45,224 nucleotides of DNA, taken from Methylobacter sp. Its GTDB lineage: Bacteria; Pseudomonadota; Gammaproteobacteria; Methylococcales; Methylomonadaceae. The translations under genes were made by a program, and so were the position numbers. The notes under the pieces are model-generated. The model saw nothing but the letters and a program-made list of their open reading frames with translations. It had not been told where the DNA came from and ran no database searches. This document shows, piece by piece, positions 1 to 45,224 of the stretch. Location: positions 1 to 45,224 of the forward strand of contig NZ_JAUXVR010000028.1 in NCBI RefSeq assembly GCF_030680395.1. The letters run 5' to 3'. Each line of letters starts with the position of its first letter. The first letter of the stretch is position 1.

Positions 1-141
1 CGGCCGACAGTTCCAGCCCGACATGCCGCCCAAAGGTGGGCGAACTGCGCCGTATGTCCACGGCCACGTCAAAGACCGCGCCTTGCACCACGCGCACCAG
101 CTTGCCTTGCGGCTGCCGGATTTGGTAATGCAGGCCGCGCA
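1..141. repeat. Left copy of the 141-bp direct terminal repeat
   Basis: Bases 1-141 are identical to bases 45084-45224 when read side by side; both begin cggccgacag and end ggccgcgca. The repeat lies inside rfbC. Joining the two copies gives one uninterrupted rfbC frame. An exact overlap of this size at both contig ends is what a closed circle produces, and 141 equals a k-mer length commonly used by short-read assemblers. A real molecule with direct terminal repeats would look the same. Confidence 0.97.
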
Positions 142-313
142 ATACATTTTTGGCCGATCGGCTGTGGTTGTCCTGCACGAAATCGACATCGCGCCCAGTG
201 AGCTCGGCGAACCGGCGGCGGTTAAAGCTTTCAAAAAAGAAGCCGCGCTCGTCGCCGAACACCTTGGGTTCGAGGATCAGGACCTCGGGAAGGGCGGTGG
301 TGGTGACTTTCAT
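1..313 (-). CDS. rfbC: dTDP-4-dehydrorhamnose 3,5-epimerase, N-terminal part (continues at the right end)
   Basis: This is the 5' portion of rfbC (rmlC), starting with ATG at 313 and running off the left edge after residue 104 (...ELSA). The enzyme epimerises C3 and C5 of dTDP-4-keto-6-deoxyglucose in the cytoplasm, the third step to dTDP-L-rhamnose. The cupin N-terminus is clear: [16 protein letters not shown], then QDNHS and LRGLHYQ with the catalytic His at position 62. The start overlaps the rfbA stop as ATGA (310-313), so translation is coupled. Joined through the terminal repeat to 44851-45083, the protein is 181 residues, the normal length for this family, with the conserved Tyr of EFLYKTTDYW near 131. 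Identity is firm; only the join across the ends is inferred. Confidence 0.96.
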
Positions 314-1197
314 GAGGGCTCTCCTTCTTTCAACAAGCGCTGCAGGTATTGCCCATAGCCGTTTTTGGCGAGCGGCTGCACCAGCTTTTCCAGTTGTCCG
401 GCATCGATGAAGCCTTTGCGATAGGCGATTTCTTCCGGGCAAGCCACTTTCAAGCCCTGCCGGTGTTCGATGGTCTCGATGAAATTGCTGGCTTCGATCA
501 GGCTCTCGTGGGTGCCGGTATCCAGCCAGGCATAGCCTCGGCCCATGATTTCCACATTGAGCTGGTTGCGCTCCAGGTAAATGCGGTTCAGGTCGGTAAT
601 CTCCAGCTCGCCGCGAGCCGATGGCTTAAGGTCGGCGGCCATATCGACCACCTGGTTGTCGTAGAAATACAGGCCGGTGACCGCATAATTGCTCTTCGGC
701 TGTGCCGGCTTTTCTTCGAGGCTGGTGGCGCGGCCCTGCTTGTCGAACGCGACTACGCCGTAGCGCTCGGGGTCTTGCACGTGGTAGGCGAAAACGGTTG
801 CGCCTTGAGTGCGCACCATGGCTTGCTCAAGCTGGGTTTGCAGGTCATGGCCGTAGAAGATGTTGTCGCCCAGCACCAGCGCGCTTGGGGCGTTGCCGAT
901 AAAGTCTTTGCCGATGATGAAGGCCTGGGCAAGGCCGTCCGGGCTGGGTTGCACGGCGTACTGCAGGTTCAGGCCCCATTCGCTGCCGTCGCCGAGCAGT
1001 TGCTCGAAGCGCGGTGTATCTTGCGGGGTGGAGATGATCAGGATATCGCGCATGCCCGACAGCATCAGGGTGCTGAGCGGGTAATAAATCATCGGTTTGT
1101 CGTAAATGGGCAGCAGTTGCTTGGAAACCACTTTGGTCACCGGGTAGAGCCGGGTGCCGGAGCCGCCGGCCAGAATAATGCCTTTGCGTTGGGTCAT
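310..1197 (-). CDS. rfbA: glucose-1-phosphate thymidylyltransferase
   Basis: RmlA/RfbA makes dTDP-glucose from dTTP and glucose-1-phosphate, the first step to dTDP-L-rhamnose and also the entry to dTDP-Fuc4N made with the RffA-like enzyme at 6913-8058. The 295-residue protein has the nucleotidyltransferase signature [16 protein letters not shown] near residues 6-21, followed by [20 protein letters not shown] and the [11 protein letters not shown] motif. Length is usual for the family. It starts with ATG overlapping the rfbD stop (ATGA, 1194-1197) and ends overlapping the rfbC start in the same way, so rfbD-rfbA-rfbC are one translationally coupled unit. No defect is seen. Confidence 0.97.
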
Positions 1198-2096
1198 AAT
1201 GGCCTCTCAAGAGTTTCGGTCAGCATGCGCGTGATACCGCTGTGCCAGTGGGGCAGATTCAAGCCGAAGGTGTTTTGCAATTTGCGGGTATCCAGGCGCG
1301 AGTTTTTAGGCCGCGGGGCTGGCAATGGGAATGCGCTGGTAGGTACGGGCTCGATCGCATCCGGCGCAACCTTGATATCGAGACCGGCTTGACGAGCGAA
1401 ATCAATGACGAAACTGGCGTAGCCGTGCCAGGAAGCCTCGCCCCCTGCCACCAAGTGGTAGAGGCCGCTTACATCCGGACGCTGCAAAGCCGAGCGAATA
1501 CTGTGGGCGGTTACGTCAGCCAGCAGGTCGGCGCCGGTAGGTGCACCGATCTGGTCGTCAATCACTGAGAGACGATCCCGCTCTTGGGCCAGACGTAGCA
1601 TGGTTTTGGCAAAATTGCCGCCGCGTGCGGCATAAACCCAGCTGGTACGGAAGATAAGATGTTTGCAGTCCATAGCGCGAATGGCCTCTTCACCTTCCAG
1701 TTTGGTTTTACCATAGATACTCAGCGGACCGGTAGGGCCGGTTTCCAGCCATGGCTTGTCACCACTGCCGTCGAATACATAATCGGTAGAGTAATGAATG
1801 AGCCATGCCCCGCTACGCTTGGCTTCTTGGGCCAGAACACCGGGAGCCATTGTATTGATGACTCGGGAAAGTTCTAACTCGTTCTCGGCTTTATCGACCG
1901 CAGTATGCGCAGCGGCATTGACGATGATATCCGGTGCGACGATGCGGATGGTTTGAGCGATGCCTTCCAGGTTAGTGAAATCTCCGCACAGTTCCTGACT
2001 ACCGGTCCCCAGAGCCACCAGCTCACCCAACGGCGCCAGACTGCGTTGCAATTCCCAGCCGACTTGACCGCCTTTACCGAACAGGAGAATTTTCAT
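1194..2096 (-). CDS. rfbD: dTDP-4-dehydrorhamnose reductase
   Basis: RmlD/RfbD is the NAD(P)H-dependent reductase of the last step to dTDP-L-rhamnose. The 300-residue protein opens with the Rossmann motif [16 protein letters not shown] and carries the SDR catalytic elements [10 protein letters not shown] and YGKTK (Tyr and Lys of YxxxK). The start ATG at 2096 lies immediately after the hairpin-forming tandem repeat that separates it from rfbB. The stop overlaps the rfbA start. Length and motifs are those of an intact RmlD. Confidence 0.97.
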
Positions 2097-2234
2097 GTCG
2101 AGCTATCCCTGCCCGACACCCTGCGGGCGGCGATGCCGTACAAATACGTTCCTGACGTATTTGTCATGTCAAGCTACCCTTGCCCGACACACTGTGGGCG
2201 GCGATGCCGTGCGAATGGGCTCCCTGCGCACTTG
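2093..2234. repeat. Two-copy 71-bp imperfect tandem repeat with hairpins between rfbB and rfbD
   Basis: Unit 1 is 2093-2163 and unit 2 is 2164-2234; a third tcat begins at 2235. Both units start with tcatgtc and share a central block near cgacac-ctg-ggcggcgatgccg. The variable end of each unit folds on itself differently. Unit 1 has a perfect 10-bp inverted repeat, acaaatacgt at 2140-2149 and acgtatttgt at 2155-2164, with a 5-base loop. Unit 2 has gtgcg/cgcac arms enclosing ggg/ccc. The array fills the gap between the rfbB stop and the rfbD start, so it is transcribed and could tune mRNA stability or translation of rfbDAC. Confidence 0.85.
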
Positions 2235-3302
2235 TCATACGGCACGCCCTGTATAGTTTTTTTCAACCCATTCGCGGTAGGCACCGGATTGGACATTGGC
2301 GACCCAGCTCTGGTTTTCCAGATACCACTGCACGGTTTTGCGGATGCCTGTGTCGAACGTTTCCGCCGGCTTCCAGCCGAGCTCACGCTCTATCTTGCTC
2401 GCATCAATGGCATAACGGCGGTCATGGCCGGGACGATCGGTAACGTAGGTAATTTGTTCGCGATAGCTCTTGCCGTCGTCTCGAACCCGCAGTTCGTCGA
2501 GCAGCGCGCACACAGTGTGCACGATGCCGATGTTGGGTTTTTCGTTCCAGCCGCCGATGTTGTAGACCTCGCCGACGTTGCCGGCGTCCAGTACGCGGCG
2601 GATGGCGCTGCAATGGTCTTTGACATAGAGCCAGTCACGGATTTGCCGGCCATCGCCGTATACGGGCAGGGACTTGCCTGCCAGCGCATTGACGATCATC
2701 AGCGGGATGAGCTTTTCCGGGAAGTGGTAAGGGCCGTAGTTGTTGGAACAGTTAGTGGTGAGCACCGGCAAGCCATAGGTGTGATGGTAAGCCCGCACCA
2801 GGTGATCGCTGGCGGCTTTGCTCGCCGAGTAAGGACTGTTGGGCTCATAGCGGTAGGTTTCGGTAAAGGCCGGATCGTCTTTAGCCAGAGAACCGTAGAC
2901 TTCATCGGTGGAAACGTGCAGGAAGCGAAAGCTTTGCCCGGCTTCGTCCGGCAGGTTGCTCCAGTAGGCGCGCACCGCTTCCAGCATCCGGAAGGTACCG
3001 ACGATGTTGGTTTGAATGAAGTCTTCCGGACCGTGAATGGAGCGGTCTACATGGCTCTCTGCGGCGAAATTGATGATGGCGCGGGGCTGGTGCCTGGAGA
3101 GCAGACTGGCTACCAGATCAGAATCGCCGATGTCGCCCTGCACGAAAAGATGGCGCTCATCGTCAGCCAGTGAAGCCAGGTTCTCATGATTACCTGCGTA
3201 GGTGAGCACATCGAGATTAATGACCGTTTCGTCGAATTGTGCCAGCCATTCCAATACAAAATTCGCACCGATAAACCCGGCACCGCCCGTTACTAAAATC
3301 AT
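2235..3302 (-). CDS. rfbB: dTDP-glucose 4,6-dehydratase
   Basis: RmlB/RfbB converts dTDP-glucose to dTDP-4-keto-6-deoxyglucose, the branch point for both L-rhamnose and Fuc4N. The 355-residue extended SDR has [16 protein letters not shown] at the N-terminus, the family-specific VSTDEVYG motif (Thr-Asp-Glu catalytic triad) and [12 protein letters not shown] with the YxxxK pair. It is the first gene of the rfbBDAC unit. The gap to rfbD is occupied by the 71-bp repeat array rather than the ATGA overlaps seen further down. Upstream is a 414-bp gene-free region with a plausible promoter. Confidence 0.97.
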
Positions 3303-3422
3303 TCAATATACCTGAAATATCCGTTCTCTCCGCAAGGATGTTTGCCGAGACGCTTTTGCGCTTTTTTATGACCTACCGAGAAGTCTGCTGCCAATCAGTC
3401 GTGCTTTGCTTATCCTTTATTC

Positions 3423-3452
3423 ATTCTAACTTACAGAGATAAGATGGGGCAA
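3423..3452 (-). promoter_or_regulatory. Candidate sigma70 promoter for rfbBDAC
   Basis: On the minus strand a -35-like TTGCCC (3447-3452) and a -10-like TAGAAT (3423-3428) are separated by 18 bp. Transcription would start about 110 bases upstream of the rfbB ATG at 3302. This is motif matching only; the -35 is imperfect. Confidence 0.35.
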
Positions 3453-3589
3453 ATTTCTTATGTCAATTGAGAATAAAGTGACTGTATTGACGTTCATTCT
3501 GACAGTCCTTTTCCTCGAAACGCTCGCGCATCCACTCAATAACCGTCAAAAATCGTACTTAAATACTAGTTTTATTTTGACGGATAAAG

Positions 3590-3647
3590 GTAAATCCGTT
3601 CGTCCTGAGCCTGTCCTGAGCTTGTCGAATGAGATGAGCGGATTTAC
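3590..3647. repeat. REP-like palindromic element
   Basis: Perfect 9-bp inverted arms gtaaatccg (3590-3598) and cggatttac (3639-3647) enclose ttcgtcctgagc...gagcttgtcgaat. The core resembles the gttcgtcctgagc-ttgtcgaa repeat scattered between genes in many proteobacterial genomes; that resemblance is from memory. It is probably a mobilised non-coding repeat (REP or MITE class) and a stable stem-loop if transcribed. Confidence 0.6.
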
Positions 3648-3716
3648 GCGCTGAGCTAAACAATTTTTACACGACATAACAAGACTGAGTACTAGCCTCG
3701 CCCAGTGCTCGCCTGA

Positions 3717-4670
3717 TTAGACAATGCTGAGAATCTTAACCACATCCCTCATCCGCTTGCTAGCCTGCCAGCCAAGTATCTTCCGGGCTTTTTCCGGGTC
3801 TCCCTGACTCCAGGAAATCTCATTCGGCCGCATGAGCTTATCGTCGCGCACCACGTGCTCAGTCCAGTCCAGTCCGAAACACGCAAAAGACTGATCGACA
3901 AAATCCTCAAGCGAATTGGTTTCCCCTGTGGCAATAACGAAGTCGTCTGCGTAGTCGAGCTGGAGGATCCGCCACATTGCCTCAACGTATTCAGGCGCCC
4001 ACCCCCAGTCACGTGAAATGCTCAAATCGCCCAACATCAGCTTTTCTGTCGATCCGCATGAAATTCGATATGCGGCTTGCACAATTTTCTGCGTTACAAA
4101 GCGCGCCGGGCGAAGCTCGGATTCGTGATTAAATAAAATACCGTTCGCCGCGAACATTTTATGCGCTTCGCGGTAATTGCGAACCAGCCAGTGCGATGCA
4201 GCTTTTGCAACCGCGTAAGGACTTACCGGATTAAAGGGCGTATGCTCATCCGCCGGCACGCCCCCGGTATCACCAAAACATTCGCTGGAACTTGCGTGGT
4301 AAAATCTCACAGGCATATCCAGGAAGCGCAAAGCCTCCAAAATATTAAGCGTACCAATAGTAATACTCTCAATCGTCTCTGAGGGCTGCTCAAAAGACAA
4401 ACCAACAGAAGTCTGACCGGCAAGATGGTAAATCTCATCCGGACGCACTTTCGAGATCACCGTAAGCGTACTCTTGAAATCATGCGGCGCCATCGATAAC
4501 AGACTGACCTGCTGGGCAACACCAATACGTGCGAGCGAATCAAATCTCGAAGCGCTTGCATCCCGTGATGTACCAAACACCTTATAACCCTTGCTCACCA
4601 GCAGTTGTGCGAGGTAAGCGCCGTCCTGGCCGCCAATACCTGTAATAAGCGCACTTTTTCTCGCCGGCAT
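3717..4670 (-). CDS. GDP-mannose 4,6-dehydratase-like SDR (second, diverged copy)
   Basis: This is an extended SDR of the GMD family: [19 protein letters not shown] near the N-terminus, HASSSECFG, SPYAVAKAASHW with the YxxxK pair, and the GMD-like NHES segment. I place the start at ATG 4670 (317 residues) because AAGGA precedes it by about eight bases, overlapping the stop of the upstream gmd; longer frames reach back to 4730. It is shorter than the upstream gmd (361) and reads NHESELRPARFVTQK where a standard GMD has [15 protein letters not shown], so two substrate-loop positions differ. It could be a second dehydratase, a 4-reductase making GDP-D-rhamnose, or a GMD with altered specificity. 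Family firm, reaction not. Confidence 0.8.
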   Translation of the reverse strand: MPARKSALITGIGGQDGAYLAQLLVSKGYKVFGTSRDASASRFDSLARIGVAQQVSLLSMAPHDFKSTLTVISKVRPDEIYHLAGQTSVGLSFEQPSETIESITIGTLNILEALRFLDMPVRFYHASSSECFGDTGGVPADEHTPFNPVSPYAVAKAASHWLVRNYREAHKMFAANGILFNHESELRPARFVTQKIVQAAYRISCGSTEKLMLGDLSISRDWGWAPEYVEAMWRILQLDYADDFVIATGETNSLEDFVDQSFACFGLDWTEHVVRDDKLMRPNEISWSQGDPEKARKILGWQASKRMRDVVKILSIV

Positions 4671-4680
4671 GGCGGCATCC

Positions 4681-5766
4681 TTATTCATGGTAATCGAAAG
4701 CGGCGTAGCCATGCTTTTTGACGAGCTCATCGCGCTCTGCGCTCTTCAGGTCTTCGCGTACCATTTCTGCCACCAGCTCACCAAAGCTGGTCTGGGGCGT
4801 CCAGCCAAGCTTCTCCTTGGCTTTAGTCGGGTCGCCAAGCAAGGTTTCGACTTCAGTAGGACGGAAGTAGCGGGGATCGACCTTCACAATGACTTTGCCA
4901 TTCTGGTCTGTGCCGGTTTCTTCTACCCCGTGACCTTGCCAATCAACCTGAATGCCGAGCTCCTTCGCAGCGGCATTGACAAAATCACGCACGCTAAACT
5001 GCACCCCAGTGGCAATGACGAAGTCTTCAGGCTTCTCTTGCTGAAGCATGAGCCACTGCATTTCGACATAATCTTTAGCATGCCCCCAGTCGCGCAAAGA
5101 GTCCATATTGCCCAGATAGAGACTGTCTTGCAGCCCCAGCTTGATGCGCGCCAGGGCTCGGGTAATCTTGCGGGTAACAAAAGTTTCGCCGCGAAGCGGT
5201 GATTCGTGATTAAAGAGAATGCCGTTACAGGCATACATCCCATAAGCTTCCCGATAATTGACGGTGATCCAGTAAGCGTAAAGTTTTGCCACTGCATAAG
5301 GGCTGCGCGGATAGAAGGGAGTGGTCTCTTTCTGCGGAGTTTCCTGGACCAGGCCGTAAAGTTCGGAGGTGCTAGCCTGATAGAATCGGGTTTTATTTTC
5401 GAGACCAAGGATACGGATAGCTTCGAGGATGCGCAGAGTGCCTATGCCGTCGGCGTTGGCTGTATATTCGGGCGTTTCAAAACTCACCGCCACGTGACTC
5501 ATGGCGGCGAGATTATAGATTTCGTCGGGCTGTACCTGCTGGATGATGCGGATCAGGTTGGTGGAATCGGTGAGATCACCGTAATGCAGGATGAAGTTTT
5601 TGTTCTCGACGTGCGGATCCTGATAAAGGTGGTCGATGCGGTCAGTGTTGAAGAGCGAGGCACGACGCTTGATGCCGTGCACTTCGTAGCCCTTTTTGAG
5701 CAAAAATTCGGCAAGGTAGGCGCCATCTTGACCAGTGATGCCTGTAATAAGTGCTTTTTTTGTCAT
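4681..5766 (-). CDS. gmd: GDP-mannose 4,6-dehydratase
   Basis: GMD forms GDP-4-keto-6-deoxy-D-mannose, the precursor of GDP-D-rhamnose, GDP-L-fucose, GDP-perosamine and others. The 361-residue protein has [20 protein letters not shown], the [16 protein letters not shown] segment typical of [18 protein letters not shown] (YxxxK) and [15 protein letters not shown]. The start ATG at 5766 has AGGGA about eight bases upstream. The stop is 10 bp before the diverged paralogue. No GDP-fucose synthase or perosamine synthase is recognisable, so the end product depends on what the paralogue does. Confidence 0.95.
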
Positions 5767-6310
5767 TTTCTTGTTCCCTATAAATTTAAATTAACACCGT
5801 CGAGGTCAATAGTGTTCGATAAAATGTTGTCATGAAGGGAGCAAAGCCATTCTATTCCTTTTCAACCGGCAGCACCACACATCCGACATCCCGTTCTGCC
5901 GCGCTGAGCTTAGCATCACAATCAGGTGATGCCTGTAACACAGTGTCCGCGCCTGATATACTCTCACGCAACATATCCTGCCATGAGAGCTTTCAGTAGA
6001 TGCGAAATGCCACTTTGCAAGCGCCCGACAATGAGGCGCTTTATCTATTCCGAGAATAGACTGTAATCCCCAAGCCTTCAAAGTCATTAAGATCTAATTT
6101 AGCCGCATGATATCGGGATCGATACCTAGCCCTATCTCGAACACCTTCATTACCTAATCAAGTAAGTAACTGTGCGCGCAGTACCCGGCACACACCATTC
6201 AATGCCGGTTCTCGATTGAAAGCAAGAATGATAGAGGCCGTTTTTATAGCTTCTGGCTACGTCCCAACAACGTAGATATCTTACGATTCATAATTACCCG
6301 TCTACATCAC
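5767..6310. other. Gene-free region upstream of gmd
   Basis: This is 544 bp between cysC and gmd. It contains two perfect short stem-loops: aagcgcc/ggcgctt (6019-6025 and 6035-6041) and tctattc/gaataga (6044-6050 and 6054-6060). Neither is followed by a long T-run. An 85-codon minus-strand frame at 5830-6087 has no recognisable domain and an odd composition, so I do not call it. A promoter for gmd must lie here or further upstream; TTGACC (5805-5810, minus) followed by AT-rich sequence is one weak candidate. Confidence 0.5.
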
Positions 6311-6916
6311 CTATGAACCAAGGTTAATCCCACGATTATCCAGCAAAGCAAGAACCTGTGCTACGCATTCCTTTAGTGGCAGACTACTGGTATCAAGCGA
6401 CAGCTCTGGGGTTTCCGGAGCCTCGTACACAGACGAAATGCCAGTAAAGTCTTTGATCAATCCTTGCCGCGCCTTGGCATAAAGACCCTTCACATCGCGC
6501 TGTTCACACACTTCCAGCGGACAATGACAGTAAATCTCAATGAAGTCTTCCGGAGCAACAAGCGAGCGGACCCGAGCGCGGTCAGCACGATAAGGTGAAA
6601 TAAAGGCCGTCAGAGCGATAACGCCAGCCTCAGTGAAAAGCTTGGCCATTTCGCCTATGCGTCGGATGTTCTCCACGCGATCCTCTGACGAGAAGCCAAG
6701 ATCAGAGCACAAACCATGCCGCACGTTATCGCCATCGAACACAAAGGTTCGGCAACCACGTTCATATAACGCCTCCTCAACTGCGTGAGCCAACGTGGAT
6801 TTGCCAGATCCGGATAGCCCGGTAAACCAGAGAATGAAACTTTTGTGGCCATTCATCCGCTCCCGCAGCAATCTGCTCACAACGGCTTCGTGCCAGTGAA
6901 TATTTGAGGTATTCAT
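6311..6916 (-). CDS. cysC: adenylylsulfate (APS) kinase
   Basis: CysC phosphorylates APS to PAPS, the universal sulfate donor. The 201-residue protein has [11 protein letters not shown] (Walker A, residues 31-41), [29 protein letters not shown] and FISPYRADR, all classic APS-kinase motifs, and is full length. Its ATG overlaps the stop of the upstream aminotransferase gene (ATGA, 6913-6916). In a glycan locus its job is almost certainly to feed the sulfotransferase at 11172-11930. No CysD/CysN ATP sulfurylase is present, so APS must come from central sulfur metabolism. Confidence 0.95.
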
Positions 6917-8058
6917 AAGCCCCTCCCATCCCCAAAAAACTCTTCGATAGTCGCACAGATATATGCAATTTCGTCTTCGGTCAAAGCGGGATAGAGGGGC
7001 AGTCGAACGAGCCGATCAGAAAGATCTTCGGTAACCGACATCGCGGAACCGGCACGACCGAACTTTCGTCCTGCGTCTGTCGCATGTAAGGGGACATAGT
7101 GAAACACTGCATTAACCCCCTTCGCTTTTAGTGCCGCCAACAAGGCGACCTGCTCATCGTGAGTTCTTGTTAATAGATAAAACATATGGGCATTGTGGGC
7201 ACATTCGCATGGGATCATGGGAAGGGAAACAAAACCGTTCTTTTCCAAGCTCCGCAATGCCGATTCGTATCGCTTCCAAATTGCCATTCGCCTGCCGTTG
7301 ATTTCATCGATATGTTGCAATTGTGCAAAAAGGAAGGCCGCCACAAGCTCGCTTGGTAGGTAGGATGACCCCACATCCACCCAGGTATATTTATCCACCT
7401 CGCCCCTGAAAAACCGAGAACGGTTGGTGCCTTTTTCGCGAATTATCTCTGCCCTCTCGAAAAACCGCAGGTCGTTAACGACCAGAGCCCCGCCCTCGCC
7501 GGAAACGATATTTTTGGTTTCGTGAAAACTGAAGGCAGCCAAGTCACCAATGGTACCGAGCTTTCGGTTTTTGTAGGTACTGCCGAGTGCCTGCGCTGCA
7601 TCTTCGATAACAAGCAGGCCATGTTGGCGGGCCATCTCCATGATGGTGTCCATCTCACAGGCCACCCCTGCATAGTGAACAGGAACAATAGCCTTGGTAC
7701 GAGAACTTATTGCCGCCTTGATCAGACTCTCGTCCATGTTCAGCGTGTCTGGCCTGATGTCCACAAAAACGGGAATGGCTCCGCGTAATACAAAAGCATT
7801 TGCTGTGGAGACGAAAGTATAGGAAGGCATGATAACTTCGTCACCCGGCTGAATGTCCGCCAAGATGGCCGCCATTTCAAGCGCCGCTGTACACGAATGG
7901 GTGAGAAGCACATCCTTGGCGCCCAAATAAGCCCCTAGAAGTTCCGAGCATTTCTTGGTGTAAGGTCCATCACCTGCGAGCCGCCCGCATTCAAGCGCCT
8001 CACGAATGTATTCAATTTCAGTACCTACCTGGTGGGGAAAATTGAAACGTATTGTCAT
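6913..8058 (-). CDS. rffA: dTDP-4-amino-4,6-dideoxygalactose transaminase
   Basis: This is a PLP-dependent DegT/DnrJ-type aminotransferase of the WecE/RffA group, which converts dTDP-4-keto-6-deoxyglucose (the RfbB product) to dTDP-Fuc4N. The 381-residue protein matches that group in [50 protein letters not shown] (PLP lysine in ETKN) and [13 protein letters not shown]. It is translationally coupled to cysC. A candidate promoter lies in the divergent gap at 8059-8198. It is an alternative consumer of the rhamnose-pathway intermediate, so rfbA and rfbB serve two sugars. Confidence 0.92.
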
Positions 8059-8104
8059 TATTTGAATTTGATATGTTTAATATGCTGGAGCTTATGGCGG
8101 AACT

Positions 8105-8132
8105 TTGTCATTAGAGGCTCGTGTAGTACAAT
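8105..8132 (+). promoter_or_regulatory. Candidate sigma70 promoter for the plus-strand block
   Basis: TTGTCA (8105-8110) and TACAAT (8127-8132) are spaced by 16 bp on the plus strand, in the 140-bp gap between divergent genes. The predicted start lies about 60 bases upstream of the ATG at 8199, which has AAGGA at 8183-8187. This is the cleanest promoter-like match seen on the plus strand. Confidence 0.5.
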
Positions 8133-8198
8133 TCTATCCATGAACTGTAGTCAGCTACCGAATAAATTTAAAAAAGATTATCAAGGATAGGACCCATA

Positions 8199-11930: not shown

Positions 11931-11933
11931 TTT

Positions 11934-13517: not shown

Positions 13518-13529
13518 AACCAGTCGCTA

Positions 13530-14762: not shown

Positions 14763-14820
14763 ATTATCCAATTTTCCCAACAGCTTAACTCTATATGTGG
14801 ACCAAACACCTTCTCGTCTA

Positions 14821-30322: not shown

Positions 30323-30324
30323 GT

Positions 30325-34969: not shown

Positions 34970-34978
34970 TGCGTTTCC

Positions 34979-36391: not shown

Positions 36392-36436
36392 ACTGATAAT
36401 ACCTTGATTTTTAGCTGCTTTGACAGCATCATTTTG

Positions 36437-39400
36437 TTACTTGGTCAATCTAAACACTAACTGTCCACCGCCCAAATGACCGAACTCGACAGATGCGTAA
36501 ACTTCGATGCTAACATCTGAAAAACCAGCCTCTTGCATTTCTTCGAGCACATCCCAGCCAAAATCCGTAAACACCAGCGAGCCATCAGCAGAGACGGGAT
36601 TTCCATGGTATGACGGCGGCAAAATATGCTCTAAAGCACCGGCAACCAATTTTGCGCGAGCAATCGACAAGTCGTTATTGCTGTGAAATGGGATGGTGGC
36701 AAGCAGCACTCCCCCCGTCTTAAGCACACGCACACATTCAGCAAAGGCTCTAGCTGGATTCGGGACATGTTCGAACACATCGTTGCTCACTATCAGGTCT
36801 AGTGCGCCATCCGGGAAACTGAGATTTTCGACATCTTCATGACGAATGCCTTTGATGATTGCACCACCCTCATATTCATGCCCAAGATATTCGCTGCCGA
36901 CGATATTATGTTTTTTGAAAGCGGCTGTTGCCCAATTATAAATAGGCGTAACCTGTTCCATAAAGTAAACGCTCTTTTTGTCGTCTACATCCAGCTCCTG
37001 CTCGATAAGCGTAGCTATCAGCCGTTGGCGGTTGTTCATCCTGCACACAGGACACTCCAGCCTTTCGCGCCAATTCGGCAGCCAACCATCATCTTGACGT
37101 TGCCCCCCTGATTGCATATCCACCAAAAAAGAAACTTTTTTGCGGCACGGCACACAATATCCATCCACTGCAAAAGCTTCGTTTGTTGACGACTCAAGCA
37201 GCGTCTTTTCAATCTCTCTAATTTGCTTTAGCAGCTCATTATCCAAAGCGAGAATAAAATTTTCCCGACTTTTAACTGATGTAATTGCCGTTAATTCATC
37301 CGCTCGTTTTTTAATTTCTTTCTGTGCCGGCTCCGACCCTGAACAAAGTGAGAGCGGATATGCGCCACGGGTCGTGGATATTGACATTTCACTAAGAATC
37401 TCATTCAAAATCTTCCAGGCTGCTTCCGCCCCCCAAGCATTTTCTGTAAACTCCAGGCCGTTATGGCTGATACGATTCCAGAGCGCTTCATCTTTGTATA
37501 GCTTCGCAATTGTATCAGCAAACGCTTCCGCGCCATCCGCAACCAGAATGTTTTCATCAGTCGTTAGCGACATGCCTTCTGCTGCCAGCGGCGTGGCCAC
37601 TACGGGTAAACCGACGGACATCGCCGACCCGATCTTGCCTTTTATACCCGCTCCGAAACGTAGCGGGGCGACGGAAATACGCATTTTGTCGAGTAACGGA
37701 TTCAGGTCGTCAACAAAACCAAGGACAATAACATCTTCGCAAGCCAAAGCCAGAATCTCGACAGGTGGATTGCTTCCCACAACATAAAAACACACTCCGG
37801 GTAAGCGTGTGCGCAGTAGCGGCATTATTTCCGCAACAAAATATTGCACCGCATCCACATTGGGCGTGTGCTGATAACCGCCGACAAAGATAATGTTTCT
37901 GCGATCAAAAAAGGTTTTCCTCGTTCCCTCTACATTCATAATTAATGGAAGGACGTGGATTTGTCCGTTAGGCAATTCCGGCCGCAACAGCTCCAGCTCA
38001 GCCATGCTAACAACGATAGAGGCGTCAGCCAGGCAAATTGCCGCAAGCTCACGTTGCTTCATTTGCTTTGCTTCCAACATTTTTACTGAATCACTGAGCA
38101 ATGCAGCTTCGCGCGTCATTCTTAAGAAATGAAGATCCACGGTATGGAAAAGCACTTTGGCATGCGGACAGTATCTTCGAACAAGTTTTACATTATTCTC
38201 AAGCACTTCTCCACGAAACAGCAAGGCAAGATCGTAACGCTTTCCCAATTCATTCAAATGTTGCTCTACAGACGTAAGGTATGGCGCATACAAAACCTCT
38301 ATTCCTGCGCGCTGAAGTGCCGGAGTATAGTCCGGCAGGTACAATAAATTATGTTCAGGAATAAATGTCACCTGAAAACCCATTTCCCGTAACAGCAATA
38401 ACATATTAAACGTTACTATCGAGCCGGCATCCTGATTGGGCGTAGGAGTACAGTAATCCAACACCAGCACACGTCGCTTGGCCATACGGTCTTTCGCTTG
38501 ATCGACCTCAACGCCCGGCGCTTGATGAGCACGAAATCTTTCCTGCCAGCGCACAAATAGCTTTGCAGTATTTTCTACCTGATATGCTTTTACGCCTTTT
38601 GTAAGATCAGTACCCGAAGTAACGCCCTCGTAGTGAATGACCTCTGAAAGCGGCTGGTAGATAACACGGTAATTAAGATCCCGGATTTTGAGTGCGAGGT
38701 CGCAATCTTCACAATAGGCCGGCAGGTAATGCTCGTCAAAGCCGCCGAGTTCATCAAATAACAGCTTGGGAACCATGATGGATGCACCCGAGCAGTAATC
38801 CACCTCTCTGGCATAGTTATAAAGCGGTAACTGTGGATCTTGGAATCGCCCAAAATTCCATGCACTACCGTCTTGCCAAATGATACCTCCGGCTTCTTGT
38901 AACGAGCCGTCTGGATAAACCAGTTTTGAGCCTACAAAACCTGTGCCGGGGAATTCATGGAAAGTTCTGACGAGTTCATCTAACCATCCCGCTGTCACTT
39001 CGGTATCGTTATTGAGGAAATGCAGATATTCGCCTCGCGCTGCCTTGGCGCCGATATTACAAGAACGGACGAAACCCTGGTTTGTTTCGTTTGAAACAAC
39101 CTTTACACCCTCAATGCTGCTGAGCCTTTTTGTTGTATCATCCGATGAGCAGTCATCGACAACAATTATTTCAAAGGAGCTTAAGGGCAGGTATCTGCAA
39201 ATCGACTCCAGGCATTGGATCGTATAGTGGACTTGATTGTAAACAGGAATGATGATACTTACCTTTGGCGTATCGAATGACTCAAACCCTAGCAGCCCAA
39301 ATTGCTTTCTGTTTATCCTTAATAGATGTTCGCATAAGATCTTCATATCGCGGAAAGGTTGTGGCTTCGGTTGCCTGCCTTCCTCGGCGCCACTAAGTAT

Positions 39401-41305
39401 AAAATGCACCAGAGGGTTGGTTCCCGCTACGGCGACATCCGGATTCTGCTCCAAGTACCAGCGGCTGTCGAACCAGGAGTTGGGATTCCTCCCTTCGGCT
39501 GCACCTTTTCTCAAGTAATGAGCTAGCGGGTTGAGGCCTGCTTCGGCGACATCCGGGTTCTGTTCCAAGTACCAGCGGCTGTCGAACAAAGGATTAGGAT
39601 TTAGACCTTCGACTGCTCCCTTGCTCAGGTAATGCGCTAGCGGATTGAGGCCTGCTTCGGCAACATCCGGGTTCTGTTCCAAGTACCAGCGACCGTCGAA
39701 TAAAGGGTTCGGATTTCGACCTTCGACTGCACCATTGTTCCAATAATGAACTAGCGGGTTGATGCCTGCTTCGGCAATATCCGGGTTCTGTTCCAAGTAC
39801 CAGCGGCTGTCAAATAATGGACCAGGATCCCGTACTTCGGCTGCACCATTGCTCAGGTAATGAACTAGCGGGTTGATGCCTGCTTCGGCGACATCCGGGT
39901 TCTGCTCCAAGTACCAGCAGTTGTCGAACAAAGGATTAGGATTTCGACATTCGACAGCACCATTACTCAAATAATGAGCTAGTGGATTAATTTCCGCTTC
40001 GGCGACATCCGGGTTTTGCTCCAAATACCACGCGGAATTAAATAGATTGCTGCTATCTATTAATTCAGTTTGCTCAGCAATAATCCTTTTTTTCCGGTTA
40101 CTCGGAGCCAATCGTTCAGTGAGTGAACGATAGAAAATACGGCCTCGCCGAATCAAGTTGGCATTGGGGATAATCTTGTCATCCTGTGTACTCACTGTAT
40201 CGTTAAGGCCGCCGATTTCCCCGTCAAGTTCAGTTACGGATTGATTGAGGCTGGCAATCCGTCTATCGCGCTCGGCTGCTCTCTGGTCGAGGCTGGCGAT
40301 CCGTCGATCGCGCTCAGCTACTCCCTGGTCGAGAGTGGCAATCCGCCTATCGCGCTCGGCCACTCTCTGGTCGAGGCTGGCGATCCGCCTATCCCATTTC
40401 GTTACGACTTGGTTGAGATCCGCGATCTGTGCTTGAAGTTCAGTGATGGATTGATTCTGGCTGGCAATTCGCTCATCGCGCTCCGTGACGGCTTGGCTGA
40501 GATTGGCAACCAGCCCGTCACGTTCAGCTACAATTCGATCCTGTGTCTGCGCCCACTTCGCAAAACCCACGTAATGTTTAAGCAAATCCAGCTTATCCGG
40601 ATAAAGAACCGACATATCCAAACCAGGCAAGTCGACACTGCTTGCGCCACAGACCGCCACAAAATACACCGGCTCTGCCAAATGTCCTGCGATGGGCTTC
40701 AGGCCATTGCCGTCATCATGCCAGGCACGGAATGAACCTTGTCCGCCTTCAAGAGGCTGAATAACGGAACCCATCAATATACGCTGACCGAAATATTGAA
40801 TGGACTGAAATTGCGTTTTCAGCAATTCATCGAATTCTTTGAAATCAAGCTCTTTGACATGAAATTCGTTATGTTCGCCACTCTCTTCAGAATAGATAGG
40901 ACGATTAGGAGAAGAAATAACAAGTAATCCATCCGGACGCAATACCCGCCTGATCTCTGCCAGCATTTGTTCTTGCTCGGCCAAATGTTCGATTGTTTCA
41001 AAGGAAACCACAACGTCAAACGAGGCATCAGCAAAATCAAGAGCAGTCGCGCTGCCTTGGCAGAACGTCAGATTAGGCTTTGCATAAGTAGCCGTAGCAT
41101 GTCGCACTGCATCGACTGAAATATCTACCCCTACAACTGAACGCGCGACATCGGCCATAAAAGATGAGCCATAACCTTCGCCGCATGCTACATCCAGAAT
41201 TTCCTTTTCTTTAACTACATCCAGCGCCATCGCATAACGATGGTAATGTTCTAATCGAATTTTGCCTTGTTCGGCAGGAATATAACGCTCACCGGTAAAT
41301 TTCAT
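36437..41305 (-). CDS. giant fusion: methyltransferase, coiled coil, 38-residue repeats, GT2, GT4, methyltransferase
   Basis: This 1622-residue protein has at least six regions. Residues 20-220: SAM methyltransferase (ILDVACGEGYGSSFM, SFETIEHL). Residues 269-366: seven 14-residue units of the LDQRVAERDRRIAS type, a predicted coiled coil. Residues 420-648: six 38-residue units (WYLEQNPDVAEAGxNPLxHYL), with Trp at 426, 464, 502, 540, 578 and 616. Residues 680-900: GT2 (VSIIIPVYNQ, VVDDCSSDDT, FLNNDTEV). Residues 944-1305: GT4/GT1-type with FVGGYQHTPNVDAV and RFGAGIKGKIGSAMSVGLPVVAT. Residues 1384-1620: zinc-ribbon-like C1384/C1387 and C1418/C1421 followed by a second methyltransferase (SNDVFEHVPNP). 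It probably builds and caps the chain exported by Wzt. Confidence 0.9.
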   Translation of the reverse strand: MKFTGERYIPAEQGKIRLEHYHRYAMALDVVKEKEILDVACGEGYGSSFMADVARSVVGVDISVDAVRHATATYAKPNLTFCQGSATALDFADASFDVVVSFETIEHLAEQEQMLAEIRRVLRPDGLLVISSPNRPIYSEESGEHNEFHVKELDFKEFDELLKTQFQSIQYFGQRILMGSVIQPLEGGQGSFRAWHDDGNGLKPIAGHLAEPVYFVAVCGASSVDLPGLDMSVLYPDKLDLLKHYVGFAKWAQTQDRIVAERDGLVANLSQAVTERDERIASQNQSITELQAQIADLNQVVTKWDRRIASLDQRVAERDRRIATLDQGVAERDRRIASLDQRAAERDRRIASLNQSVTELDGEIGGLNDTVSTQDDKIIPNANLIRRGRIFYRSLTERLAPSNRKKRIIAEQTELIDSSNLFNSAWYLEQNPDVAEAEINPLAHYLSNGAVECRNPNPLFDNCWYLEQNPDVAEAGINPLVHYLSNGAAEVRDPGPLFDSRWYLEQNPDIAEAGINPLVHYWNNGAVEGRNPNPLFDGRWYLEQNPDVAEAGLNPLAHYLSKGAVEGLNPNPLFDSRWYLEQNPDVAEAGLNPLAHYLRKGAAEGRNPNSWFDSRWYLEQNPDVAVAGTNPLVHFILSGAEEGRQPKPQPFRDMKILCEHLLRINRKQFGLLGFESFDTPKVSIIIPVYNQVHYTIQCLESICRYLPLSSFEIIVVDDCSSDDTTKRLSSIEGVKVVSNETNQGFVRSCNIGAKAARGEYLHFLNNDTEVTAGWLDELVRTFHEFPGTGFVGSKLVYPDGSLQEAGGIIWQDGSAWNFGRFQDPQLPLYNYAREVDYCSGASIMVPKLLFDELGGFDEHYLPAYCEDCDLALKIRDLNYRVIYQPLSEVIHYEGVTSGTDLTKGVKAYQVENTAKLFVRWQERFRAHQAPGVEVDQAKDRMAKRRVLVLDYCTPTPNQDAGSIVTFNMLLLLREMGFQVTFIPEHNLLYLPDYTPALQRAGIEVLYAPYLTSVEQHLNELGKRYDLALLFRGEVLENNVKLVRRYCPHAKVLFHTVDLHFLRMTREAALLSDSVKMLEAKQMKQRELAAICLADASIVVSMAELELLRPELPNGQIHVLPLIMNVEGTRKTFFDRRNIIFVGGYQHTPNVDAVQYFVAEIMPLLRTRLPGVCFYVVGSNPPVEILALACEDVIVLGFVDDLNPLLDKMRISVAPLRFGAGIKGKIGSAMSVGLPVVATPLAAEGMSLTTDENILVADGAEAFADTIAKLYKDEALWNRISHNGLEFTENAWGAEAAWKILNEILSEMSISTTRGAYPLSLCSGSEPAQKEIKKRADELTAITSVKSRENFILALDNELLKQIREIEKTLLESSTNEAFAVDGYCVPCRKKVSFLVDMQSGGQRQDDGWLPNWRERLECPVCRMNNRQRLIATLIEQELDVDDKKSVYFMEQVTPIYNWATAAFKKHNIVGSEYLGHEYEGGAIIKGIRHEDVENLSFPDGALDLIVSNDVFEHVPNPARAFAECVRVLKTGGVLLATIPFHSNNDLSIARAKLVAGALEHILPPSYHGNPVSADGSLVFTDFGWDVLEEMQEAGFSDVSIEVYASVEFGHLGGGQLVFRLTK
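39362..40045 (-). repeat. Six 114-bp tandem coding repeats in the giant fusion gene
   Basis: These bases encode six in-frame 38-residue units (residues about 421-648) with the pattern W-Y-L-E-Q-N-P-D-V-A at constant spacing. Units are near-identical in protein and partly diverged in DNA, so the copy number is old but still prone to slippage or recombination. Similar repeats occur in other large bacterial glycosyltransferases; their function is not established as far as I know. Confidence 0.92.
40208..40501 (-). repeat. Seven 42-bp tandem coding repeats (coiled coil)
   Basis: These bases encode seven 14-residue units (residues 269-366), each two heptads long, the best conserved being LDQRVAERDRRIAS. 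The period equals two heptads, so gain or loss of a unit keeps both the reading frame and the coiled-coil register. Confidence 0.9.
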
Positions 41306-41312
41306 AAAAAAC

Positions 41313-42002
41313 CTATTTTCTTGCGATTAATACCAGCGCAGCCGGATATTCGAATGAAAAAACTTCGCAGGAACAAAAGCCTGCTTTCAAAACAGTTTGC
41401 CAAACGTCCGCTCCAAACTCCGTGCAAACTACTTGATCGTCCGCAGGAACGCCTGACTGACCGTGGTAGCTTGGAGCCAAGCCTGTGCGCGAACGTGTCA
41501 TACGACCGACAATAATTGGCACAGTAAAAATACAGAGTCCGCTAGGACGAAGAACACGCCGACATTCTGATAACGCTCTTTCTGGGAATGGCACGTGTTC
41601 CAAGGTATCAGAATGGATTACCAAATCGAATTTTTCCGATTCGATATCAAGATTTGTCATGTCAAACTGTGGGTATTCGATTAACTTGTGATTCGGTAGC
41701 TTTTGTAGAAATTGGGTCAAATTTCCTGCTTTATTGATTTCTAGTACATGTAATTCAGCGGATGAGTTACAGAATTCAACCAAAGTCCGATGAGCTGAAT
41801 AGCTGCAGAGTATCGCTTTTGCCAGCCCCATCGCACGCAAATTATTGCCACACTTTTGACAAAAAATGCCTTGTTGTCGGTTTATGTAATTTATTTCTTC
41901 GTGCGACAATTGCCACGCATCAATTAAATCGCGCCACAATACATCTACAGCTCCGAAGTGACCTGAGCCACAGGCAACACAGTATTGCAGAGCTATCTCC
42001 AT
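41313..42002 (-). CDS. class I SAM methyltransferase with zinc-ribbon-like N-terminus
   Basis: A methyltransferase of about 229 residues. The N-terminus has two CxxC pairs (YCVACGSG and IFCQKCGNN) as in a zinc ribbon. The catalytic part shows HVLEINKAG, VIHSDTLEHVPFPERALSECRRVLRP and the late LAPSYHGQSG. The same order of features is in the C-terminal domain of the giant fusion (VSNDVFEHVPNPARAFAECVRVLK, LPPSYHGNP), so the two are paralogues. Start is uncertain: ATG 42002 or TTG 42026, neither with a strong Shine-Dalgarno. Seven bases separate it from the fusion gene. Confidence 0.82.
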   Translation of the reverse strand: MEIALQYCVACGSGHFGAVDVLWRDLIDAWQLSHEEINYINRQQGIFCQKCGNNLRAMGLAKAILCSYSAHRTLVEFCNSSAELHVLEINKAGNLTQFLQKLPNHKLIEYPQFDMTNLDIESEKFDLVIHSDTLEHVPFPERALSECRRVLRPSGLCIFTVPIIVGRMTRSRTGLAPSYHGQSGVPADDQVVCTEFGADVWQTVLKAGFCSCEVFSFEYPAALVLIARK

Positions 42003-42157
42003 TTCTTTAGCTAAAATTTCTTCCAATTTTCACTCACAATTTTTTATCATAGTAGATTATTATTAGCTAATACGAGCTTGGGGCTTCAATGTATTAACCT
42101 TTATGGGGGGCATTTATATTCCAGATTAACACCGAGCATCTAAGGTCACATCAAGCT

Positions 42158-42910
42158 TTACGACCTAATTATCAATCCTTGTCCCGTCGGTAGAGATACT
42201 ACTGATGATCCTAACTCTCGCATTAACGCATCCATAGCAGTTTTCTGCTGACGATAACCCCAGTATGCATAGTCATCTAATAACACGATGGCACCCGGAA
42301 CCATTTTTTCCCAGAAATACCCAACTGCCGCCACTTCTGGAGGCGCGCAATTTAGGTCCACATGCAAAAAAGCAATCTTGTTTGAATTCACATGCTTTAA
42401 TGTCTCAGGGATGCTCCCTTTGATGATCTGCACACCATTCCATTCAGAGAAATTCTTAATAACGTTATCGACATCGGTTACATAAAATCCCATGTCAATC
42501 AATTTGCTGTTTTTCTCGATTGCACCTTCGGCAATCTCCACATCGGAAACGTAGCGCTCATCTAATCCACTGAAAGTGTCTAATAAATAAAAAGACTTGT
42601 TAAGTGAGTTCCAATTCAGATAGTGCATGATACTGCTACTCATGAATCCTGCGTTAACGCCGCATTCGACAAAATCTCCATCTAATTTTTTTGCCACCGA
42701 TGCTGCCCACAGCCCTATATGTACACGCCAGTGCCAGCCGTAATCTTTCCCAGAGGCCTGGACTCCACGAGCATATGCAGCGGCGAACGCATTATCGCTC
42801 ATAAATTCACTGTTATGAATAGATGCCAAACCATCCTGAATATATGACGATGGTTCAACAAGAATTTCCGTCACTCTTCGACTTCTTTGCTCATTATCAT
42901 AATTTGTCAT
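42158..42910 (-). CDS. TylF/MycF-type sugar O-methyltransferase
   Basis: A 250-residue protein of the macrocin O-methyltransferase (TylF) family: DFVECGVNAGFMSSSIM for SAM binding, FYLLDTFSGLDERY, and FLHVDLNCAPPEVAAVGYFWEKM followed by VLLDDYAYWGY, which carry the Mg-binding acidic residues. These enzymes methylate sugar hydroxyls. In a Wzt-dependent system a terminal O-methyl group often marks chain completion, so this gene is one candidate capping enzyme. Confidence 0.92.
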   Translation of the reverse strand: MTNYDNEQRSRRVTEILVEPSSYIQDGLASIHNSEFMSDNAFAAAYARGVQASGKDYGWHWRVHIGLWAASVAKKLDGDFVECGVNAGFMSSSIMHYLNWNSLNKSFYLLDTFSGLDERYVSDVEIAEGAIEKNSKLIDMGFYVTDVDNVIKNFSEWNGVQIIKGSIPETLKHVNSNKIAFLHVDLNCAPPEVAAVGYFWEKMVPGAIVLLDDYAYWGYRQQKTAMDALMRELGSSVVSLPTGQGLIIRS

Positions 42911-42923
42911 TATTTATCTAGTC

Positions 42924-43043
42924 TCAACTATATTGATGGCGTGAAATATCTAGGTCGGTCGAATAGCTTTCGGTTTTCGTTCCATCTGGAAGGGTAAACT
43001 CATAAAACCACTTTTGTTGCTTAACTCTATCTAATTTATCCAT
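42924..43043 (-). pseudogene. 39-codon remnant resembling a methyltransferase N-terminus
   Basis: ATG 43043 overlaps the wzt stop (ATGGATAA) and has a near-perfect GGAGG five to six bases upstream, so it should be translated efficiently. The peptide reads KQQKWFYEFTLPDGTKTESY and ends at TGA 42924 after SRHQYS. That segment resembles the start of sugar-locus SAM methyltransferases that have a W[FY]xxxxLPDG motif before the SAM domain. The rest of such a gene is absent: TylF starts 13 bp further on. It is either a truncated gene with intact translation signals or a genuine micro-ORF. Confidence 0.5.
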
Positions 43044-44412
43044 TACTACCTCCATTTGGGATGTACAAGCAGATTGCTTTCATCGGAATGCCTACCAGCC
43101 CTTGGCAAACTGAACTCGCATGAACCCTTACAATTAGAGCCTCGTGCATCCAATGATGCTGAACATGGTTTTCTTGTGTTCCTTCAGCCAAAGCCACCGT
43201 TACACTATAATCACCGGTAGGCAATATGGGTAAGCGAAACTCAAACTTTGCAATTAATTCGTTCCCCGCATCAACTGTAGGAGAGTTGAACTGATAGCTA
43301 AGATAAGTGTTATCGGTGAAAACAACTTGTCCCAACCTATCCTTGAATTGAAAACCCACAATAGGTCTGAGTATCTGCTCATGAGCTTTGCATCGAATCT
43401 CCAGAATAACGTCCTCGCCACCGACCGCCCAAGATAACGGTGCGCCGTCACTACTGCGTAATACTACAGAAGAAATAACGGCAATATCAGTGCCAAAACC
43501 GGATTTTTCTGGCTCAAACTTGAATACTTCGATATCGTTGCGCAATGTAGATCCATTAATTAATGCTTCGCGCGCATCTTTGTATTCGAGATCGGTATGA
43601 TATTCATTGGATGCGGAAAGATCAGTTTTGTCTATTTGAATATCACCTTGGCTAGATTCATAAAGGGTCTCAAGATAGAGTTCAGTGACTTGCTTTGGGG
43701 TGCCTGAAGCTTTTATTTGACCATGATCCAATAGAACTGCCTTGTTACACAAATTGACCACCGCCCCCGTATCGTGACTCACAAACAGAACGGTTCCGGT
43801 TTTCATAAAGTTGCGCAAATAGCGCATGCATTTTTGAGTAAAAAAAGCATCCCCTACCGCTAACGCTTCATCAATCACCAAAATATCCGCATCCACATGC
43901 GCAATGACGGCAAACGCCAGCCGCACCATCATCCCGCTGGAATATGTTTTTACCGGCTGCCCGATAAAATCACTGATGTCGGCAAAGGCAACAATGTCAT
44001 CAAATCGCTTATCGATTTCTTCGTTGCTCAAGCCGAGCACAGCGGCATTCATATATACGTTCTCCCGCCCGGTGAACTCTGGATTGAAGCCTGAACCAAG
44101 TTCGAGCAGCGCAGCGATGCGGCCATAGGTTTGAACACTGCCACTGGTAGGATTAAGTGTGCCGCAGATCATTTGCAGCAGTGTAGATTTACCGCTGCCA
44201 TTGCGTCCGATGATACCTACCGTTTCGCCTTTCTTGATTTCAAATGAAATATCTTTGAGCGCCCAGAATTCGCGGAAATATTGCTTTGGCGGCAGCCCTG
44301 CGAGACGTTGCAGTCGAGGTAACACGAACTGCTTGAGCCGATCGCGCGGAGCATCGTAAATGTGATAACACTTGCTGAGGTTTTGTACGTGAATGGCGAT
44401 GTCGGTGGTCAT
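43036..44412 (-). CDS. wzt: ABC-type polysaccharide exporter, ATP-binding subunit with C-terminal glycan-recognition domain
   Basis: Wzt energises export of finished, undecaprenyl-linked glycan across the inner membrane. The 458-residue protein has Walker A GIIGRNGSGKSTLL (67-79), the Wzt-typical signature TYSSGMMVRLAFA (156-168), Walker B ADILVIDEALAVGDAFF (175-191) and the H-loop LFVSHDT (209-215). Residues about 300-458 form the extra beta-sandwich (GFGTDIAVISSVVL...HHWMHEALIVRVH) that in characterised Wzt proteins binds a modified chain end. Its ATG overlaps the stop of a 97-codon ORF. The permease gene wzm, normally directly upstream, is not in the window. Confidence 0.94.
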   Translation of the reverse strand: MTTDIAIHVQNLSKCYHIYDAPRDRLKQFVLPRLQRLAGLPPKQYFREFWALKDISFEIKKGETVGIIGRNGSGKSTLLQMICGTLNPTSGSVQTYGRIAALLELGSGFNPEFTGRENVYMNAAVLGLSNEEIDKRFDDIVAFADISDFIGQPVKTYSSGMMVRLAFAVIAHVDADILVIDEALAVGDAFFTQKCMRYLRNFMKTGTVLFVSHDTGAVVNLCNKAVLLDHGQIKASGTPKQVTELYLETLYESSQGDIQIDKTDLSASNEYHTDLEYKDAREALINGSTLRNDIEVFKFEPEKSGFGTDIAVISSVVLRSSDGAPLSWAVGGEDVILEIRCKAHEQILRPIVGFQFKDRLGQVVFTDNTYLSYQFNSPTVDAGNELIAKFEFRLPILPTGDYSVTVALAEGTQENHVQHHWMHEALIVRVHASSVCQGLVGIPMKAICLYIPNGGSNG

Positions 44413-44702
44413 ACTGGGTATCGTCGAGTTATGTTGCCGGCATAGGCGATGACATTGGGAACGACTGCTAATAGCGCCGAAGACATATTAGCAACTACGA
44501 TATATATCTTCGATATTTTCTTATTAGCAATCAGGTTTCTCAACTTGAGACTATTAATCATGCCGGAGGGGGCCGCGCGGCAAATACCATCAAGTATTGT
44601 GCCGCCGCTCATCAGCTCAACCCCATCAATCAAGCGAAAAATGCGTCGAATTAGTAGGTCAGTCAGCGCGTCTTTAAGCAGCTCGGCTTTTTCCAGTGTC
44701 AT
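44409..44702 (-). CDS. small hypothetical protein upstream of wzt (where wzm is expected)
   Basis: ATG 44702 has GGAG about seven bases upstream and gives 97 residues; a longer frame reaches 44744. Both ends overlap neighbours as ATGA (44699-44702 and 44409-44412). The N-terminal half is charged (EKAELLKDALTDLLIRRIF) and the C-terminal half has one hydrophobic stretch (YIVVANMSSALLAVVPNVIA). I recognise no family, and it does not look like a Wzm permease, which has about six membrane segments. It may be a new small protein or what remains after loss of wzm. Confidence 0.45.
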   Translation of the reverse strand: MTLEKAELLKDALTDLLIRRIFRLIDGVELMSGGTILDGICRAAPSGMINSLKLRNLIANKKISKIYIVVANMSSALLAVVPNVIAYAGNITRRYPV

Positions 44703-44854
44703 AGCAAAACTCCGGTCTGCACGGGCATTCTGGAGAAGAAACAACTGGCAGCGGAGTATACAGTAATGTCAATCTTGCGCACGCTTAGTTTCCTGACCGC
44801 AAGGGATATGGACTGGGCGGCGTGAGGGTTGACCGCGGTTGCCGGGTGGGTCAT
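44699..44854 (-). CDS. micro-ORF between rfbC and the 97-codon ORF
   Basis: A 51-codon frame starting at ATG 44854, which overlaps the rfbC stop (GCATGA), and ending at TGA 44699-44701, which overlaps the next ATG. It begins MTHPATAVNPHAAQ and contains VRKIDITVYSAAS; no family is recognised. Coupling at both ends is the only evidence for translation. Confidence 0.35.
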   Translation of the reverse strand: MTHPATAVNPHAAQSISLAVRKLSVRKIDITVYSAASCFFSRMPVQTGVLL

Positions 44855-45224
44855 GCGAAATGCTCCGCGTCAGCCAACGACTTGCCCAGTTGGTCTTTTG
44901 CGGACAACGCGGGCTCGCCTTGAATCGGCCAGTGGATGCCGATGGCCGGATCGTTCCAGGCAATGCTGCGCTCGAATTCGGGAGCCCAGTAGTCGGTGGT
45001 TTTGTACAGAAACTCTGCGGTATCCGACAGCACTACAAAGCCATGTGCGAAGCCTTCGGGTATCCACAACATGCGTTTGTTTTCGGCCGACAGTTCCAGC
45101 CCGACATGCCGCCCAAAGGTGGGCGAACTGCGCCGTATGTCCACGGCCACGTCAAAGACCGCGCCTTGCACCACGCGCACCAGCTTGCCTTGCGGCTGCC
45201 GGATTTGGTAATGCAGGCCGCGCA
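44851..45224 (-). CDS. rfbC: dTDP-4-dehydrorhamnose 3,5-epimerase, C-terminal part (continues at the left end)
   Basis: The 3' portion of rfbC, entering from the right edge and ending at TGA 44851-44853. It contains [18 protein letters not shown], then after the repeat RMLWIPEGFAHGFVV, EFLYKTTDYW with the probable catalytic Tyr (131 in the joined protein) and IAWNDPAIGIHWP. Bases 45084-45224 duplicate 1-141. Joined to 1-313 it gives 181 residues with no gap or frameshift. Its stop overlaps the 51-codon ORF start. Confidence 0.96.
   Translation of the reverse strand, partial: RGLHYQIRQPQGKLVRVVQGAVFDVAVDIRRSSPTFGRHVGLELSAENKRMLWIPEGFAHGFVVLSDTAEFLYKTTDYWAPEFERSIAWNDPAIGIHWPIQGEPALSAKDQLGKSLADAEHFA
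45084..45224. repeat. Right copy of the 141-bp direct terminal repeat
   Basis: Exact duplicate of bases 1-141, lying inside rfbC. The residue immediately before it in the left copy (Ala 104) continues in frame into ENKRMLW here, which is how the circular join was deduced. Confidence 0.97.

Follow-up and report, generated by a model that had tools for sequence, protein, structure and literature searches.

The window, which is the whole 45,224-base stretch of DNA analysed here and constitutes contig C24 of its genome (G000; 4,355,590 bases in 49 contigs, completeness given as 100% and contamination as 0.71%), very probably belongs to a linear chromosome that carries a second polysaccharide cluster and was looped by the assembler through a duplicated rfbBDAC block. 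On this account, a unique 41 kb would be bounded on each side by a copy of rfbBDAC (~3.7 kb, 97% alike where both are visible). A short-read assembler would have merged the two copies, unable to tell which leads where, and would then have looped the unique 41 kb through the 141-base overlap that it usually makes. The simplest chromosomal order would be C29 - rfbCADB - unique 41 kb - rfbCADB - C30. C29 closes with a second rfbC and C30 opens with a second rfbB, both oriented as they are in the window; a relative has C29 and C30 sequence joined by one rfbCADB block, and a tuf-rpoBC-fusA-tuf loop of the same type is present in the same assembly. From these observations we infer the placement of the 41 kb between C29 and C30, and the merging of the copies at a smaller k as the cause of the loop. 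A preliminary description of the window had the locus closing into a circle and offered three possible origins; its observations are confirmed in part, and its interpretation is partly supported. The features of the window are listed in Table 1.

Table 1. Features of the window and the comparisons that define them
Feature	Position	Strand	Basis
Left copy of the 141-bp terminal redundancy (assembly overlap), inside rfbC	1..141	.	Exact end comparison; overlap length common to 14 other contig-end pairs
Right copy of the 141-bp terminal redundancy	45084..45224	.	Exact end comparison
Repeat block, first part: 5' rfbC, rfbA, rfbD, rfbB and ~95 bp upstream of rfbB	1..3397	-	2584-3397 vs C30:1-813, 96.9%
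Repeat block, second part: 3' rfbC and start of truncated wzm	44796..45224	-	44796-45216 vs C29:45538-45958, 96.7%
rfbC, 5' part at left end	1..313	-	181-aa ORF over the seam; dTDP_sugar_isom
rfbC, 3' part at right end, continuing at 142-313 once joined	44851..45224	-	181-aa ORF over the seam; dTDP_sugar_isom
rfbA, nucleotidyl transferase	310..1197	-	Pfam PF00483
rfbD	1194..2096	-	Pfam PF04321
rfbB	2235..3302	-	Pfam PF16363; partial second copy at C30:1-719
Unique part between the repeat-block boundaries, second glycan cluster	3398..44795	.	No C29/C30 homology beyond gmd-type genes and the dispersed repeat
Dispersed intergenic repeat, just inside the unique part	3570..3696	.	17 further matching places in the genome, some partial
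wzt, intact; ABC transporter ATPase with Wzt_C domain	43036..44412	-	Pfam PF00005 and PF14524; sole close match in its own genome
wzm, first ~20 codons, remainder absent	44795..44854	-	90% over 20 aa to the intact Wzm of C29; 22 aa in another comparison

Terminal redundancy and self-closing contigs

The first and last 141 bases of the window are identical, joining them gives 45,083 bp, and the join restores an intact 181-aa RfbC (44851..313) with a 4-bp overlap with rfbA, all as first described. No longer terminal overlap was found in tests up to 2,000 bases. The identity of the termini is far beyond chance, and its length is that of the contig overlaps of this assembly. When both ends of the 48 other contigs and the ends of the window were compared for exact overlaps of at least 21 bases (C5 and C31, which are N throughout, were set aside), exactly 141 bases proved common to 14 end pairs from different contigs, while 16 further pairs share 49 to 138 bases. 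The figure of 141 is therefore an overlap length of this assembly, and its recurrence between other contig ends speaks against a biological terminal repeat of that length. The largest default k of MEGAHIT is 141, and names with k141_ are present in record titles of other genomes. The CheckV authors state that terminal repeats often have the length of a k-mer and that calls of closed genomes include false positives (PMC8116208).

Four of the 49 contigs overlap themselves by 141 bases: the window, C15, C20 and C35. The last three (L066, L036 and L048, respectively) would be labelled circular by the same test. C35 carries the genes for EF-Tu, the RNA polymerase beta and beta' subunits and EF-G, and the 141 bases that recur at its ends correspond to codons 1-47 of tuf. 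Once joined it measures 16,434 bp, which fits the spacing of same-orientation tuf pairs in two relatives (16,430 bp within one contig of G019, a genome assembled in three contigs, and 16,383 bp in G018); C35 is thus a chromosomal tuf-rpoBC-fusA-tuf block falsely closed into a circle. C20 contains peptide synthetase (NRPS) modules and C15 a MASE1-PAS-GGDEF-EAL gene; the contigs linked to these loops, C11 and C14, go on with 92.8% and 93.6% copies of the respective loop start. All three of the other self-closing contigs therefore carry chromosomal, repeated genes.

Each of these three control loops keeps a 141-base link to one chromosomal contig (C28 in the case of C35). The window, in contrast, has no exact overlap of at least 21 bases with any other contig end, and its relation to C29 and C30 is one of 92-97% homology only. 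This difference is the main point against a loop made by the assembler. The missing links could reflect paths lost at 3% divergence or a truly circular form present at greater depth. The second flank of C35 was likewise not found: the sole other EF-Tu gene of the genome, on C26, is not preceded by fusA. The C26 gene lies beside rpsJ, and its DNA identity with the C35 copy is only 81.5%; C26 (L078) could be of foreign origin or chimeric.

A contig whose termini repeat over the length of a k-mer is commonly taken for a circular plasmid or phage. In this assembly that test of circularity is passed both by a glycan cluster and by an rpoBC block, so a search of the bin for a second copy of the seam should be added to it.

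Gene content and the duplicated rfbBDAC block

The Pfam families found in the window comprise nucleotide-sugar, glycosyltransferase, methyltransferase, aminotransferase, acyltransferase, sulfotransferase and transporter genes. As the preliminary description had stated, genes for replication, partition, mobilisation, integration or phage functions were not found: Pfam, run on 38 stretches of the window (two of them the halves of rfbC), gave no replication, partition, relaxase, integrase or phage family, and PHROGs gave no match for eight unannotated or weakly annotated ORFs. The window holds no tRNA genes, and no Rfam match reached the gathering score. The dispersed repeat at 3570-3696 is ~120 bases long and contains an imperfect inverted repeat (3590-3604 / 3633-3647). 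Positions 36437-41305 encode a 1,622-aa fusion of a methyltransferase with two glycosyltransferases. Its best segment is 62-71% identical in 16 of 19 loci from species genomes, including Nitrospirota and Desulfobulbaceae; as 22 genomes of the same genus give domain-level matches only, this distribution is a sign of lateral transfer.

The preliminary description held that no chromosomal flank of the locus remained, and suggested a search of the same bin. That search identified the ends of a second rfb block, with rfbC closing C29 and rfbB opening C30. Over its last 48 bases C29 departs from the window; these bases were not accepted as a real rfbC variant since G019 matches the window there, and look like a read-error tail. 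The start of C30 is not relied on as an exact break point at k=89, the identical stretch being 88 bases. In G019, C29 sequence (91%), one rfbCADB and C30 sequence (89%) follow one another on a single contig of 2,936,421 bases, and C29 and C30 should therefore each meet an rfb block; the rfb block of G019 (C1:1884290-1887621) is 87.6% identical to window positions 1-3335. Among the candidates scored (40 of 54), rfbA and rfbD were listed for the window alone, so the likeliest explanation is that the chromosomal copy of these genes was merged into that of the window.

The window is homologous to C30 as far as 3397, a point 95 bp upstream of rfbB, and to C29 as far as 44796, which is ~20 codons into wzm. 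These boundaries give a block of ~3,685 bp and a unique part of ~41.4 kb. Two gene-free regions had been suspected of holding an unnatural junction; the first (3303-3716) does contain one boundary, nothing was found for the second (5767-6310), and the boundary inside the truncated wzm was not among the places suspected. The seam had also been taken as a true continuation. It is no proof of a circle: the seam lies inside the repeat, where the copy that continues is indistinguishable, and flanks are present in the same genome. A path through a merged block does not show from which side it came. Among the three origins offered (an excised or amplified island, a tandem duplication and an assembly loop through a repeat), the last is favoured, the repeat being the duplicated rfbBDAC; the suggestion of a circularising glycan locus has no positive evidence. 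The proposed operon rfbA-rfbC-ORF-ORF-wzt stands as regards the 4-bp overlap of rfbC and rfbA, and is amended for the two ORFs: 44699-44854 opens with ~20 wzm codons before it diverges, and 44409-44744 has no family match in Pfam, NCBIfam or PHROGs.

Where both are visible, the two rfb copies are ~97% alike. Over 420 sites, the window and C29 group against G019 at 35, the window and G019 at 6, and C29 and G019 at 7; over 813 sites, the window and C30 group against G019 at 72, and the other groupings account for 7 and 15. By this measure the rfb copies of the window and of C29/C30 are sisters relative to G019. No second close rfbB was found in the 16 relatives searched, each having one match of at least 59% and a next one of at most 38%, a result to be read knowing that short-read assemblies could hide a copy. 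Contig C8 of G009 (L172, 6357-7361) ends inside rfbB, two bases past the match; a second rfb copy may be breaking that assembly too.

A glycan transporter apparently divided between two clusters

The remaining biological interest lies in the apparent split of one glycan transporter, whose wzm is kept next to one cluster and whose wzt belongs to the other. On C29, wzm is intact and the adjoining wzt has decayed (L006, which is C29:40001-46006; wzm at 4742-5596). G019 (L136) shows the same arrangement, with a stop codon in wzt at the same place, and a search of G019 found no other Wzt of the window type. The two wzm genes are both open, and their dN/dS of 0.056 (Nei-Gojobori) indicates that wzm is under purifying selection despite the decay of the neighbouring wzt. 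A degraded wzm in 44412-44795 of the window was considered and rejected, as only the first 20 codons match convincingly and other matches are at chance level.

In this genome the Wzm of C29 and the Wzt of the window are the only ones of their type; the other pair, on C42, is unlike them (Wzt 37%, Wzm 25%). Adjacency of related genes was surveyed in 17 of the 19 loci from species genomes (identity of 76% or more to the Wzm of C29 and of 70% or more to the Wzt of the window, at most 100 bases apart). An adjacent wzm/wzt pair was found in five of the 17 (L122, L123, L124, L130 and L131), the closest being that of Methylobacter psychrophilus (L131; Wzm 85%, Wzt 75%). In some loci, such as L116 and L119, the two genes are kilobases apart, in L121 and L126 neither was seen, and others have more distant pairs. 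The Wzt of the window and the Wzm of C29 look like parts of one transporter; similar pairs stand adjacent in these five loci. An intact wzt lacking its wzm in the window, and an intact wzm with a dead wzt on C29, favour the presence of both in one cell, and the arrangement suits two glycan clusters that share a transporter. Against such sharing, the wzm of G019 stays open although no such Wzt was found in that genome.

A simple history in which the pair was duplicated and then lost opposite halves would need a further step, as the wzt lesion of C29 is common to G019 and the rfb copies of the window and of C29/C30 are closer to each other than to G019. The lesion predates the split from G019, and the visible rfb divergence postdates it. 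Either gene conversion would have homogenised the rfb copies, or the 41 kb would have come in later with a working wzt.

Alternative readings and comparison with known systems

The assembly loop is favoured by the 14 other end pairs of 141 bases, the chromosomal nature of all three other loops, the second rfb ends, the order in G019 and the fitting Wzm on C29; its redundancy has an overlap length of the assembly, and the genome contains more than one copy of the sequence at its seam. Against it, besides the lack of an exact link to chromosomal contigs, count the existence of the G019 locus without the 41 kb, the single close rfbB in relatives and the missing second flank of C35. Some of these facts would also suit a real extrachromosomal circle, in which the 41 kb and one rfb block were excised from, or recombine into, the chromosome at rfbBDAC and reached some copy number. 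Recombination between two direct rfb copies would yield exactly this circle together with the C29-rfbCADB-C30 form of G019, and would agree with the absence of a graph link from the window to C29 or C30. However, the window lacks replicon, mobility and recombinase genes in the Pfam and PHROGs searches, so that an autonomous circle would possibly be a replicon of an undescribed kind. The same assembly falsely circularises the rpoBC block, chromosomal rfbA and rfbD are missing elsewhere, so that the closure runs through a merged repeat, and the Wzt of the loop and the Wzm of C29 look like parts of one transporter. We regard a real circle as very unlikely. The chance that the 41-kb block truly leaves and re-enters the chromosome through recombination of the two rfbBDAC copies is likewise slim. 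If it did, every excision would deprive Wzm of its motor and turn the exported glycan off in one step, since the block carries the only fitting Wzt found and does not include the fitting Wzm; G019, with its intact wzm and decayed wzt and no other such Wzt found, would then represent a natural 'off' state.

A mixture of strains would account for the same contigs if some cells had C29-rfbCADB-C30 and others the 41 kb with a second rfb block, or if a contig of a sister strain had been binned with this genome. The rfb copies are ~97% alike, a distance seen between strains of one species, and G019 lacks the 41 kb. The contamination estimate of 0.71% argues against a mixture, however, and the complementary damage to wzm and wzt on two contigs fits a single genome better; a mixture is very improbable.

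Glycan clusters are found on plasmids, and relatives of this Wzt occur there, for example in Azospirillum and Citrobacter. The best 12 Wzt records listed are, however, only 53-55% identical, one of the 5,000 records counted falls in the 60-80% identity band, and no plasmid place covering 80% of the 1,622-aa protein was found. With relatives so remote and no replicon gene in the window, a plasmid was set aside as the leading reading. The window also resembles O-antigen clusters that depend on a Wzm/Wzt ABC transporter. The window has rfbB, rfbD, rfbA and rfbC followed by wzt and glycosyltransferases, its Wzt has both the ABC (PF00005) and Wzt_C (PF14524) domains, and two of the loci surveyed (L123 and L130) have the order rfbB-rfbD-rfbA-rfbC-wzm-wzt. 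It differs from them in that its own wzm is cut to 20-22 codons, the intact gene standing on C29 beside a decayed wzt. A narrow literature search for recombination between duplicated rml genes of O-antigen loci found nothing. A parallel to an assembly loop through rfbBDAC is the false circle of C35 within the same genome. The C35 loop keeps its 141-base link to C28 whereas the window has none, and the rfb copies differ by ~3% where visible. In both, however, an exact 141-base redundancy lies inside a duplicated gene, tuf in C35 and rfbC in the window, and a unique chromosomal block lies between direct repeats.
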